DNA of 64,000 bases. Origin: Thiomicrorhabdus arctica DSM 13458. Its GTDB lineage: Bacteria > Pseudomonadota > Gammaproteobacteria > Thiomicrospirales > Thiomicrospiraceae. Each line of letters begins with the position of its first letter. Within the stretch, counting starts at the first letter, position 1. The notes beneath the pieces are model-generated. The model was given only the letters and a program-made list of their open reading frames with translations. It was not told where the DNA came from and did not search any database. The stretch spans positions 1,736,001-1,800,000 of the forward strand of contig NZ_KB905899.1 of assembly GCF_000381085.1 (NCBI RefSeq), written 5' to 3'. Both the position numbers and the translations under genes were made by a program. This document shows, piece after piece, positions 10,081 through 13,869 of the stretch.

Positions 10081-10288
10081 TATTATGATCATTATGGATA
10101 ACCTGATTAACCCTATCGTTTGAGACCGTTTTAGGTATCACCTATTAAAGAACACGAATAGACGTATAATATAGCAAACCTTATTTATTATTTTGGTTGC
10201 GCCTCTCGAATAGGTAAGTCCTATGACATGGCCGGATCGAATATCGACTTAAGAAGAGCCTTTGTATACGCACTGGTTAGGAAACAAA

Positions 10289-12688
10289 ATGCTAGGAATA
10301 GAAATTCTAGGCGCTCATGGCAGTGCTGCACAAGCACACCATTGCACCTGTTTTAAACTGGGCGAAAATATTCTGCTTGATGCCGGTGATGCGATGGCCT
10401 CACTCGGTGAAAAAGTCGTTTATATCGAGCATATCCTGCTTACTCATTCGCATTTTGACCATATCAGAGATCTGCCTTTTATCATAGAAACATACTATGA
10501 AAAACGCCAAACGCCCCTGAAGATTTATGGATTGCCACGTACACTTGAAGCCCTTGAAAACCATCTATTCAATGGTGTAATCTGGCCACCATTCCACCAG
10601 ATAATCCACCCTAATTTTAAAAAAAACAGCATAGAGTTCATACCTATAACGTTCGACACGCCCTTTGAGTTAGGTGTTTTCCAATTTACTCCATTTCCTT
10701 CAAATCATACCGTTGATTGCTGTAGTTACCTCATTCGCCATGCCAACAGTGCCTGTATCATCTCATCGGACACCTACCTTACTCACCATCTTAATGAGGT
10801 GATCCATCAAAATCCAGATGTGACGAGTCTCTTCATTGAGTGCTCTTTTCCTTCTCGATTGGAGGCGTTGGCTAAACTCAGCAAACACCTGACACCTAAA
10901 CTTTTAAAAGAGCAACTGAGCGGTATTCATAGGCCTATACATACCTATCTTTATCATTTAAAACCTAATTTTGAAGCAGAAATCACCCAAGAGATTGCCC
11001 AAAACTTTAACTCTGAAAGCTTGCATCAAATTTCAGGGTTTTTAGAAAGCGGTCAGAGTATCGATCTCTTTTCAGAGAAACCCGTGGTGACTCGCATTCC
11101 CTCAAGTATTTATTGTGCAGGTCAGCAAAAGCAATTAACCGCGTTACTAAACATTTCCCAAATTCTCTCAAGCGAACACAATCTAGAGCATTTGTTAGAC
11201 ATGATTATTGATGAAGCCATGAAGTTTACCCAAGCGGATGCCGGCACACTTTACCGCTATAACAAAACTCAACAGCAGCTTGAGTTTACGGTTGTCAGAA
11301 ACAATACGTTAAATATTCATATGGGCGGTACGCAACAAGAGATTACTTGGCCAAACGTGTCACTGTATCAAGACGAAGTGCCTAATATCAGCATGGTAGC
11401 GGCCACTTGCGCGTTAGAAAAACGTCCTCTGAAAATTACCGATGTATACAGTGAGACGCATTTTGATTTTAGCGGCACACGAGCGTTTGATAAGCGCACG
11501 GGTTATCAGTCTAAATCGATGTTAGTGATCCCATTGCTCACCAAAGATAATGAATTATTAGGGGTCTTGCAACTGATCAACAAACATAATGAACACCAAG
11601 AAAGCATCGCTTTTTCTGAGCAAGATCAAACCAATACGATGGCATTGGCTTCTCAAGCCACCCTCTCACTCTCCAATGCCTTACTCGTCCATCAGATGGA
11701 AGATTTATTTGAGTCTTTTGCGACCGCCATTAACATCGCATTTGACGAAAAATGTAGTTTTACAGGCATTCATATTCGGCATGTCGCAAAACTGGCCGAA
11801 TTGATTTCCCATGCCATTCACCAAGATGACACGGTTTATGCCGACATCCATTACAGCCATGAAACCCTGCACAGTATCAAAATTGCTGCTTTGGTACATG
11901 ACATCGGTAAAATATCCACACCTGAATTTATTTTGCATAAAGCGACTAAGTTAGAAAAGAACATTGACCGAATCCATCTAGTGGCATTAAGAATTGAGTT
12001 AGCCAAACAAGCGATTTTAATTGAGGGGTTGAGCCAATATCTACCGCGTGGCTTAACTCTAGACAACTTGTTAGAAAAACATCATTCAGCGATGCAATTA
12101 TTAGAGGAGGATGGTGCGTTTTTACACAAAATGAACAGTGGTCGAGAATCTTTGGCGCCCGGATCTGCTGAGCGGATTCACCAAATAGCCCAACGCCAAT
12201 ACCCTTTTAAGGGTAAAAATAGACCACTCTTGGAAAGTGATGAAGTGCTTAATTTATGTATTCAACGCGGCACACTGAACGAGACCGAACGCCAAATTAT
12301 TATGAACCATGCACGCTTATCGTTAGAGATGCTTCAAACGCTACCTTTTCCAGAAAAATACGGTCAAATTGTCGACATCGCTTCCAACCATCATGAAAAA
12401 CTTAATGGTCAAGGTTATCCGCGTGGTTTAACCGCTCACGAGTTAACACTTGAGGATCAAATCATGGTGTTGGCAGACCTATATGAAGCGCTCTCATCTA
12501 AAGAACGTCCTTATAAAGCACCGATGGCCATTAACCAAGTCGTGGACATTTTGTGCGATATGGCGAATAAAGGTGAAATTGATAAAACCCTGTTACGCTT
12601 CTTCTTTGAGAAGGGTATATACAAACAATACAACACTTATCTTAATCCTGAGCAAATCACTGATTTTGAACTCAAATTTAACGAGTGA
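10289..12688 (+). CDS. Metallo-beta-lactamase / GAF / HD-GYP signalling protein
   Basis: Three modules in one chain of 799 residues. Residues 1-260 are an MBL fold like class II cyclic-nucleotide phosphodiesterases, with THSHFDH metal ligands, a later His in PSNHTVD and Asp in ISSDTY. About 275-440 is a GAF sensor. The C-terminus is HD-GYP: VHDIGKIS, then a spacer of about 110 residues, then NHHEKLNGQGYP. HD-GYP enzymes cleave cyclic-di-GMP or related dinucleotides. ATG 10289 follows AGGAAA at good spacing; the frame also allows TTG 10262. Its stop overlaps the start of the DUF3095 gene, so the two are translationally coupled. Cytoplasmic; substrates are inferred. Confidence 0.9.
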   Translation: MLGIEILGAHGSAAQAHHCTCFKLGENILLDAGDAMASLGEKVVYIEHILLTHSHFDHIRDLPFIIETYYEKRQTPLKIYGLPRTLEALENHLFNGVIWPPFHQIIHPNFKKNSIEFIPITFDTPFELGVFQFTPFPSNHTVDCCSYLIRHANSACIISSDTYLTHHLNEVIHQNPDVTSLFIECSFPSRLEALAKLSKHLTPKLLKEQLSGIHRPIHTYLYHLKPNFEAEITQEIAQNFNSESLHQISGFLESGQSIDLFSEKPVVTRIPSSIYCAGQQKQLTALLNISQILSSEHNLEHLLDMIIDEAMKFTQADAGTLYRYNKTQQQLEFTVVRNNTLNIHMGGTQQEITWPNVSLYQDEVPNISMVAATCALEKRPLKITDVYSETHFDFSGTRAFDKRTGYQSKSMLVIPLLTKDNELLGVLQLINKHNEHQESIAFSEQDQTNTMALASQATLSLSNALLVHQMEDLFESFATAINIAFDEKCSFTGIHIRHVAKLAELISHAIHQDDTVYADIHYSHETLHSIKIAALVHDIGKISTPEFILHKATKLEKNIDRIHLVALRIELAKQAILIEGLSQYLPRGLTLDNLLEKHHSAMQLLEEDGAFLHKMNSGRESLAPGSAERIHQIAQRQYPFKGKNRPLLESDEVLNLCIQRGTLNETERQIIMNHARLSLEMLQTLPFPEKYGQIVDIASNHHEKLNGQGYPRGLTAHELTLEDQIMVLADLYEALSSKERPYKAPMAINQVVDILCDMANKGEIDKTLLRFFFEKGIYKQYNTYLNPEQITDFELKFNE

Positions 12689-13869
12689 TCGACTGTATGC
12701 CATCCCAAAACAGCTATTTTGAAGAGTCTATTCCCTACCAAAACCTGTTTGCCAATGCCTTACATCAGACGGCTTATCTACCTCTGCCAAAAAATTGGTT
12801 TGTCGTGATTACTGATATCCAAAATTCCACTAAAGCAATTGATGCCGGCCAATACCGTGACATCAACTCCATTGGGGGAAGTTCGATAGCCGCAGTGGTT
12901 AACGCGACTAAACCTAGAGCCATTCCTTACGTATTTGGTGGCGATGGAGCTAGTTTTTGCGTCCCTCCGGAACTGCTCGAACCGGTTAAACAAGCCTTAC
13001 GAGGGTGTCAACAACTGGCGCTTGATTCAGCACAACTCGTATTAAGAGTCGGCATCATTCCCTGCCATGAATTAGACAAGCCCGTGTTTATCAGCCGATT
13101 TAAACGAACAGAAAACTTAAAACAATTTTTCTTTATGGGCGGCGGGCTGGAAGAAGCCGATGACAAAATAAAATGCAATGACCAGTATGAATTAGCGATT
13201 GATACACCTGTTAAGGTGGATTTTTCTGGATTTGAGTGTCGATGGAATGAAATTCCGAGTCCAAAAGAAGTCACCTTTAGTTTGATTGTAAAGTCTCGGT
13301 TGATGAACACTGAAAAGACATTAGCGTTATACCAACGACTAAGCCAACAAATTGTCCATGACCTTGGCTCGTTACAAGACAGTGCACCTTTGAGCCAAGA
13401 AGCCCTGACCTTGAGCTTCAATCGAGATTCGTTAAAAATAGAAACTGCGAGCAAAACGTTTCAACAAGGGATTTGGCATAATCGGCTCGAACTGTTACGC
13501 ATTCGCTTACAAAACATCGTTGGTATTTATTGGATGAAGATCTCAAAAATCTATAAAGGTTATAACTGGGGGAACTACAAAAAGGACCTTATTAAAAACA
13601 GTGACTTTGAGAAAGTGGATGATGCTTATCGTACCGTTTTATCAGCTGAACAAACACAGCTGGATGCGTTGTTAGCATGGTTAGACAAGGCCCATTATCA
13701 GGGATTGCTGTTCTATGGTTGTCATCAAACCCATTCTGCGATTATCACCTGTCTCATCACGGAAACAGGCCAGGACCATATTCACTTTGTCGACAGTGTC
13801 AATGGGGGTTATGCGGTGGCGGCTAAACAGTTGAAACAACAGATGGCAGCAGAGAAAAACGCCTTTTAG
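12685..13869 (+). CDS. DUF3095 family protein, class III cyclase-like N-terminus
   Basis: I assign this to the DUF3095 family. Its N-terminal third looks like a class III nucleotide cyclase: VVITDIQNSTKAID matches the first metal-binding Asp block (Asp44) and YVFGGDGASF the second (Asp87). The rest is not recognised. The start is GTG 12685, overlapping the upstream stop by 4 bases; ATG 12697 (MPSQNSYF) is the alternative. The tight coupling to a phosphodiesterase-like MBL/HD-GYP protein suggests that the pair makes and degrades a nucleotide signal. Cyclase activity is inference from the two Asp blocks only. Confidence 0.8.
   Translation: MIDCMPSQNSYFEESIPYQNLFANALHQTAYLPLPKNWFVVITDIQNSTKAIDAGQYRDINSIGGSSIAAVVNATKPRAIPYVFGGDGASFCVPPELLEPVKQALRGCQQLALDSAQLVLRVGIIPCHELDKPVFISRFKRTENLKQFFFMGGGLEEADDKIKCNDQYELAIDTPVKVDFSGFECRWNEIPSPKEVTFSLIVKSRLMNTEKTLALYQRLSQQIVHDLGSLQDSAPLSQEALTLSFNRDSLKIETASKTFQQGIWHNRLELLRIRLQNIVGIYWMKISKIYKGYNWGNYKKDLIKNSDFEKVDDAYRTVLSAEQTQLDALLAWLDKAHYQGLLFYGCHQTHSAIITCLITETGQDHIHFVDSVNGGYAVAAKQLKQQMAAEKNAF

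Follow-up and report, generated by a model that had tools for sequence, protein, structure and literature searches.

On the + strand of the stretch of Thiomicrorhabdus arctica DSM 13458 analysed here (the window; 64,000 nucleotides, positions 1,736,001 to 1,800,000 of contig NZ_KB905899.1), a gene for a DUF3095 family protein follows a gene encoding a metallo-beta-lactamase (MBL) domain fused to GAF and HD-GYP domains. We propose that the two gene products form a signalling module in which the DUF3095 protein plays the part of a class III adenylyl cyclase and couples a cyclic AMP (cAMP)-type signal to the loss of cyclic di-GMP (c-di-GMP), a reading to which we assign a probability of roughly 0.55. 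The proposal builds on the domains and intact metal sites of the two proteins, a predicted fold, a recurrent gene association and co-occurrence within the host's family, from which we infer the catalytic and regulatory steps and the identity of the nucleotide.

The DUF3095 protein has a predicted tandem cyclase fold

The DUF3095 gene (12685..13869, +) encodes 394 amino acids, and PF11294 matches across 371 residues (E-value 3.1e-107), that is, over a complete DUF3095. Its AlphaFold2 model and fold matches mark it as a predicted tandem cyclase-homology protein. The initial annotation had pointed to both aspartate blocks of class III cyclases in this protein, and TDIQNST and GGDGAS are indeed present. 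The metal aspartates of these blocks, D44 (12814-12816, +) and D87 (12943-12945, +), are invariant in 57/57 rows of a DUF3095 alignment that holds 57 of 80 named loci (the window and 56 others, the rest being near duplicates or having uncertain starts). The 4-base overlap (GTGA) with the upstream gene that had been described for the locus exists only if GTG at 12685 is the start codon; when the alternative ATG at 12697 is used, a short gap takes its place.

An AlphaFold2 model computed from the 57 rows reached a predicted local distance difference test (pLDDT) score of 96.1 and a predicted template modelling (pTM) score of 0.93, and all 14 matches that a Foldseek search with this model returned at E <= 0.001 were adenylyl cyclases. 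VIA comparisons aligned the model with AC8 C1-C2 at Z 13.2 (root-mean-square deviation (rmsd) 4.0, 264 residues over positions 13-390, both halves at once) and with 6yii at Z 12.3 (rmsd 4.4, 278 residues), so that the cyclase fold anticipated by the initial annotation is borne out at the level of the model. Of the two outcomes that this annotation had named as refuting, a model lacking the fold and loss of the two aspartates among homologues, neither occurred. The N half contains a C1-like cyclase domain (12775..13209, +; residues 31-175) that carries D44 and D87 and matches Rv1900c (1ybu) at Z 10.0. The C half (13252..13866, +) is C2-like; modelled alone with AlphaFold2 it reached a pLDDT of 94.8, and its structural matches, which include the C2 region (290-424) of human soluble cyclase in the VIA comparison, are moderate (Z 7-8.5).

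By strand order only, and using what we take to be the canonical C2 positions (the base-selecting Lys and Asp, the Asn and the Arg), K310 (13612-13614, +) and D370 (13792-13794, +) would occupy the base-selecting places, at which they are retained in 56/57 and 57/57 rows, respectively. The same strand order puts the Arg place at position 381, which holds Lys in 21 rows and Arg in 16 (together 37/57). As in the mammalian transmembrane and soluble adenylyl cyclases, the predicted fold is a pseudo-heterodimeric C1-C2 arrangement with both aspartates in the first half; unlike in these enzymes, the Asn of the N-R pair seems to be lost, and identity to the matched mammalian adenylyl cyclases is about 10%. 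On the strength of the model, we regard a cyclase fold with paired C1-C2 halves as well supported for DUF3095, and cyclase activity as plausible.

Elsewhere, the DUF3095 gene is broken into two open reading frames (ORFs) in two loci (L046 of genome G019, and L116), and one ORF of 608 amino acids (L216:1480-3303, -) carries about 230 extra N-terminal residues without a Pfam match, for which a later true start is possible.

The fused partner retains the metal sites of two predicted phosphodiesterase domains

The upstream gene (10289..12688, +) encodes the MBL-GAF-HD-GYP fusion recognised in the initial annotation, as defined by its ORF, its Pfam domains and its relatives. The frame is open over 10262-12688 (+), giving 808 amino acids when counted from TTG at 10262, and has an in-frame ATG at 10289. 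All Pfam matches of the window proteins lie above the curated cut-offs; in the fused protein they delimit a class II phosphodiesterase-like MBL domain (10367..10921, +; residues 36-220; PF02112, PDEase_II, 3.2e-11, and PF12706, Lactamase_B_2, 8.1e-12), a GAF domain (11180..11668, +; residues 307-469; 6.4e-14) and an HD-GYP domain (11696..12676, +; residues about 479-805; HD_5, 2.9e-30).

We counted metal ligands across 29 fused proteins gathered from relatives, the window protein included. The two-metal site and the [T/S]HxHxDH motif of MBL phosphodiesterases are complete in 29/29 (H62, H64, D66, H67, H149, D170 and H232). The window motif THSHFDH (10442-10462, +) fits the [T/S]HXHXDH signature that the accessible text of PMC9293780 gives for atypical class II phosphodiesterases. 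The nearest solved relative by profile is yeast PDE1 (4ojv, 1.6e-15), with RNase Z behind it at 4.2e-11. The alternative of a tRNase Z was rejected: the window protein reaches 45 bits with the two best-matching NCBIfam RNase Z models, short of their cut-offs of 252 and 293, and no solved relative matches the MBL profile better than yeast PDE1. The domain shares its motif, two-metal site and PF02112/PF12706 matches with yeast PDE1 and with Rv1339, YhfI and CpdA of Corynebacterium glutamicum (accessible text of PMC9293780); by contrast to these atypical class II enzymes, it is fused to GAF-HD-GYP, and the accessible parts of their descriptions contain no such fusion.

The HD-GYP domain is similarly intact, with H504, H546, D547 and H683 retained in 29/29 fused proteins, and H710, H711, E712, the GYP motif and D739 in the 28/28 rows that have letters there; the remaining row (L304, G019) has a frame break upstream of H710 and hence no letters at these positions. 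The HD and HHE..GYP motifs of HD-GYP phosphodiesterases are present in the window protein (HDIGK at 11897-11911, +; HHEKLNGQGYP at 12389-12421, +) and in its fused relatives, and profile matches include PmGH (4mcw) and V-cGAP3 (5z7c), which share both motifs and, in the case of 4mcw, the GAF-HD-GYP order. The window protein differs from these two in its extra MBL domain, in an insert of about 100 residues that separates HDIGK from HHEKLNGQGYP, and in the residue before the first HD-GYP His, which is Glu in 4mcw and Tyr (14), Phe (12) or His (3), never Glu, in the 29 fused proteins. This Glu is presumably the third-metal ligand of trinuclear enzymes, and its loss touches the trinuclear subtype only, not membership of the HD-GYP family.

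The GAF domain carries an NK..F...D motif that resembles NKFDE, with the last E replaced by Q in the window protein; among the 29 fused proteins the five letters are kept in 29 (N), 24 (K), 27 (F), 27 (D) and 15 (E) cases. Profile matches include the cyclic nucleoside monophosphate (cNMP)-binding GAFs of PDE5 and of the cyclase CyaB2 (1ykd), and the NKFDE motif is present in most characterised cyclic-nucleotide-binding GAFs according to the accessible text of PMC4411481. Judging from these motifs and profile matches, the MBL domain most likely breaks a cyclic mononucleotide, the GAF domain most likely senses it, and the HD-GYP domain most likely breaks c-di-GMP.

The same partners adjoin class III cyclases in other loci

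We searched 142 genomes of relatives, with a family subset of 62, and a phylum sample of 398. The family contains 22 copies of the fused protein, 20 full-length and two frame-split, and further chains with two hydrolases occur among relatives of a Sulfurovum metagenome-assembled genome (MAG), so the architecture is less unusual than the initial annotation had judged. The two split genes each consist of two ORFs (L311:5016-7425 in G030 and L138:1507-3980 in G019). Five of the 22 copies lie beside DUF3095, eight beside a class III cyclase and nine beside neither. The eight comprise the second copy of the window genome (G000, L297) and those of G009, G022, G036, G039, G043, G046 and G058, the last by coordinates rather than from a larger locus. 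Pfam identifies the cyclase next to the second MBL-GAF-HD-GYP protein of the window genome as a CHASE2 and PF00211 protein. Four genomes with a copy beside a class III cyclase (G000, G036, G039 and G046) also carry DUF3095, and in 9/9 genomes whose fused copy adjoins neither cyclase type, DUF3095 is found elsewhere in the genome.

Outside the family, the MBL gene lies beside a class III cyclase in 7/10 loci from genomes of the same taxonomic class (10 of 11 were examined, G383 having returned no locus), with CHASE2 and PF00211 identified by Pfam in the three that were scanned. The recurring unit is MBL plus GAF-HD-GYP plus a class III cyclase, which is frequently of the CHASE2 type, and not the pair of DUF3095 and phosphodiesterase. 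The make-and-break pair suggested by the initial annotation is reinforced by the occurrence of the same partners beside class III cyclases in other loci, one of them in the window genome, and stands as a candidate module. CHASE2 class III adenylyl cyclases (PF05226 and PF00211), which combine a membrane sensor with a single catalytic domain that must dimerise, resemble DUF3095 in their place beside MBL and GAF-HD-GYP and in their two metal aspartates, whereas DUF3095 lacks CHASE2 as well as a PF00211 match and combines two cyclase-like halves in each chain.

The residue set D,K,D,T,N,R is intact in 7/7 of the linked class III cyclases inspected, and the T is found in 51/56 collected cyclase domains, linked or not. 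We take this set with T to be the class IIIb adenylyl cyclase pattern, which points to cAMP as the probable messenger. Four loci with cNMP-binding domains are present in the window genome, which, judging by these domains, may possess cAMP receptors.

Among relatives of the Sulfurovum MAG, the MBL was found in 28/100 genomes; its next gene is a class III cyclase in 17 and DUF3095 in one (the MAG itself), a class III cyclase lies within about 3 kb in one more, and neither was seen in nine, two of them on very short or broken stretches. Both fusion orders, MBL-GAF-HD-GYP and the reverse GAF-HD-GYP-MBL, were seen. The MAG layout (L064), DUF3095(+) MBL(-) GAF-HD-GYP(-), is unfused and mirrors the cyclase(+) MBL(-) GAF-HD-GYP(-) layout of L237. 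The MBL and GAF-HD-GYP proteins of the MAG are 50-53% and 64-65% identical, respectively, to those of L236 and L237, and among the loci compared the closest relative of its DUF3095 comes from a Chromatiales MAG (51%). It looks as if the cyclase had been replaced in place by DUF3095, in a single MAG for which a binning error is possible even with all three genes on the same contig.

Other arrangements include a GAF-HD-GYP gene followed by two tandem MBL copies (L285:4992-6535, G607), and FecR (L297) and TPR/SlipAM-type genes (L297 and L294), at L297:1263-2747 and 3-1256 and at L294:1465-2766, upstream of the class III cyclase, the latter hinting at an envelope signal in the canonical modules that is absent from the DUF3095 version.

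DUF3095 co-occurs with the MBL gene in the host's family

Across the 62 family genomes, all 22 that carry DUF3095 also carry the MBL (DUF3095 x MBL = [[22,0],[11,29]], Fisher 9.8e-9), and the pattern is [[22,0],[7,22]] in the 51 genomes that are at least 90% complete. When either DUF3095 or PF00211 is considered, 33/33 MBL genomes are covered ([[33,7],[0,22]], 4.5e-11): both cyclase types are present in 10, DUF3095 alone in 12 and PF00211 alone in 11, so that no MBL genome is left with neither (p 0.0021). G021, whose fused gene is broken, was counted as MBL-positive as its MBL scored above threshold. The complementarity of the two types among MBL genomes stems from the genus (1 both, 10 DUF3095 only, 4 PF00211 only, 0 neither; p 0.0037).

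We then mapped these states onto an rpoB tree with 54 tips (G032, with a partial gene, was left out, and 7/62 genomes gave no rpoB match). This tree requires no fewer than 15 state changes of DUF3095, and of 40,000 Mk simulations that yielded about as many carriers, none confines DUF3095 to the MBL set and none covers all 12 PF00211-less MBL genomes, in a test that uses a single gene tree, a simple model and an unbalanced genome set. Cas1, an unrelated patchy gene that served as sole control, occurs with the MBL in 16/31 cases and is not associated with it (p = 1).

Proposed mechanism and results that weigh against it

In the mechanism that we propose, the single DUF3095 chain would form its active site from the C1-like half, bearing the two metal aspartates, and the C2-like half, closing it, and would convert ATP to cAMP or another cyclic mononucleotide. 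The product is most likely a cyclic mononucleotide, probably cAMP. The MBL domain of the fused partner would remove this messenger and reset the system, while the GAF domain, of the cyclic-nucleotide-binding type, would read it and gate the HD-GYP domain, which would then break c-di-GMP.

Several results weigh against this proposal. First, Pfam gives no PF00211 match in the window DUF3095 protein, phmmer and profile searches against PDB found no solved relative of DUF3095 by sequence, and hhalign of each DUF3095 half against 56 class III cyclase domains returned no significant match (probability 0.2%). Because of the missing PF00211 match and the hhalign result, we do not assign DUF3095 to PF00211 and propose only that it works in a similar way. 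Second, Foldseek with the C half alone returned no match at E <= 0.001 (the best rows being mostly cyclases), and the Z scores of this half in VIA are only those given above and are shared between cyclases and Cas10/Csm1 chains. Third, position 377, the inferred place of the transition-state Asn, is Ala in 49/57 rows and never Asn. Fourth, the complementarity of the two cyclase types is absent from the family outside the genus (9 both, 2 DUF3095 only, 7 PF00211 only, 0 neither; p 0.5), and over the 62 family genomes as a whole the presence of DUF3095 does not depend on that of PF00211 (p = 1). Finally, a phylum-wide link was rejected: of the 53/398 phylum-sample genomes with DUF3095, 15 have the MBL and 38 do not (p 0.059). 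Among the 142 relatives, the only DUF3095 carrier that does not belong to the family, G076, is without MBL, no MBL lies within 1.5 kb of DUF3095 in the 30 phylum-sample loci returned, and an MBL is near DUF3095 in only 3/80 named loci, whose flanks extended to as much as 6 kb if the contig was long enough (the G004 and G027 contigs and the MAG). In L172 the MBL itself has no cyclase beside it and stands between accD-like and trpA-like genes (by Pfam). Since the MBL is so scarce near DUF3095 outside the family, DUF3095 must have other partners elsewhere.

The profile results and the Ala at position 377 would both be expected if DUF3095 were a nucleotide-binding regulator that has the cyclase fold and no cyclase activity, sensing ATP or a cyclic nucleotide and regulating its partner, and the good fold match 6yii is itself deposited as an ATP-binding class III cyclase-like protein (PDB title). 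We consider such a regulator unlikely, as D44, D87 and D370 do not vary and K310 differs in a single row, and as 12/12 PF00211-less MBL genomes of the family have DUF3095, a pattern more readily explained by a synthase than by a protein that merely binds nucleotides. Comparison of the two DUF3095 halves with one another by hhalign gave no proof of homology between them.

The match to 6yii can also be read in another way. This protein, PaPycC, is a clade A Pycsar cyclase and resembles DUF3095 in being bacterial, in having two consecutive cyclase domains (accessible text of PMC11224242) and in its similar aligned length, so that DUF3095, in the manner of that clade's tandem pyrimidine cyclases, might be a nucleotidyl cyclase for a different messenger (cUMP, cCMP or cGMP). 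An MBL partner would suit such a product too, given that MBL phosphodiesterases can be broad, as is Rv1339 (accessible text of PMC9293780). By contrast, DUF3095 replaces cyclases with adenylyl-type K and T residues, K310 and D370 would suit adenine if their inferred places and presumed canonical roles hold, and the gene context differs from that of Pycsar clade A: the window DUF3095 gene has a phosphodiesterase and a DsrE-like gene as neighbours, with no effector-like gene among them by Pfam and no PADLOC match at E <= 1. We judge a product other than cAMP to be improbable, to much the same degree as the regulator.

Turning to the gene pair itself, the initial annotation had suggested that it might be conserved, and this was not upheld: DUF3095 is present in 23/142 relatives and adjoins the fused phosphodiesterase in only five of these (the window genome, G003, G004, G020 and G027; L049 and L050 represent the same contigs as G004 and G027 and were counted once). 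The five phosphodiesterases form a clade with support of 94/89, just below the starred level, and their DUF3095 partners group, weakly resolved, with those of G053, G055 and G057 in a tree of 36 chosen rows with long branches and open forks; the adjacency probably arose once in this family. Although the rarity of the pair, the missing phylum-wide association and these trees, for which one origin suffices, are what a chance neighbourhood inherited in one lineage without functional tie would leave behind, we hold this to be very improbable in view of the second, unfused association at the position of the cyclase in the Sulfurovum MAG, the phylogeny-aware co-occurrence in family genomes where the genes are not adjacent, and the Cas1 control.

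Surroundings of the locus and other settings of the MBL gene

The genes flanking the pair in the window are glutamate-synthase-like and, after DUF3095, DsrE-like, both on the opposite strand, and scans of the locus for promoters and terminators gave no excess over the shuffled expectation. In other loci, L159 and L165, the MBL lies beside GAF-MshEN-T2SSE genes. The phylum sample also holds 59 genomes of one family (f115) with the same MBL, which is a separate gene in the loci read (among L166-L186); in L172 it lies at 1489-2271, a setting without cyclase.

Implications for cyclic nucleotide signalling

A literature search, most subscription papers being beyond its reach, found no mention of DUF3095 or PF11294 and no description of an architecture joining HD-GYP, metallo-beta-lactamase and GAF; none of the titles and abstract openings that it covered, on HD-GYP, CHASE2 and cyclase homology domains, describes the present module. 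The nearest precedent found is Bd1971 of Bdellovibrio, a cAMP-sensing c-di-GMP phosphodiesterase in which, as in our proposal, cAMP gates c-di-GMP hydrolysis within one chain; it differs in using a cNMP/CRP-family sensor and an EAL domain, and the accessible text names no cAMP-degrading domain (PMC6717892).

In a broader and more tentative form, to which we give somewhat less than even odds, DUF3095 would be an unrecognised, widespread class of single-chain bacterial nucleotidyl cyclases that has displaced class III adenylyl cyclases in the recurring module, with the partner polypeptide as a dedicated junction from cAMP to c-di-GMP. If the proposal is true, a family without assigned function that is present in 53/398 phylum-sample genomes would acquire an enzymatic function that can be put to the test. 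In addition, PF00211 searches would miss a whole class of cyclases that takes part in cAMP metabolism in bacteria, as in the 12/33 MBL genomes of the family that have DUF3095 and no PF00211. The fused partner would then be a hard-wired link between the turnover of a cyclic mononucleotide and that of c-di-GMP.

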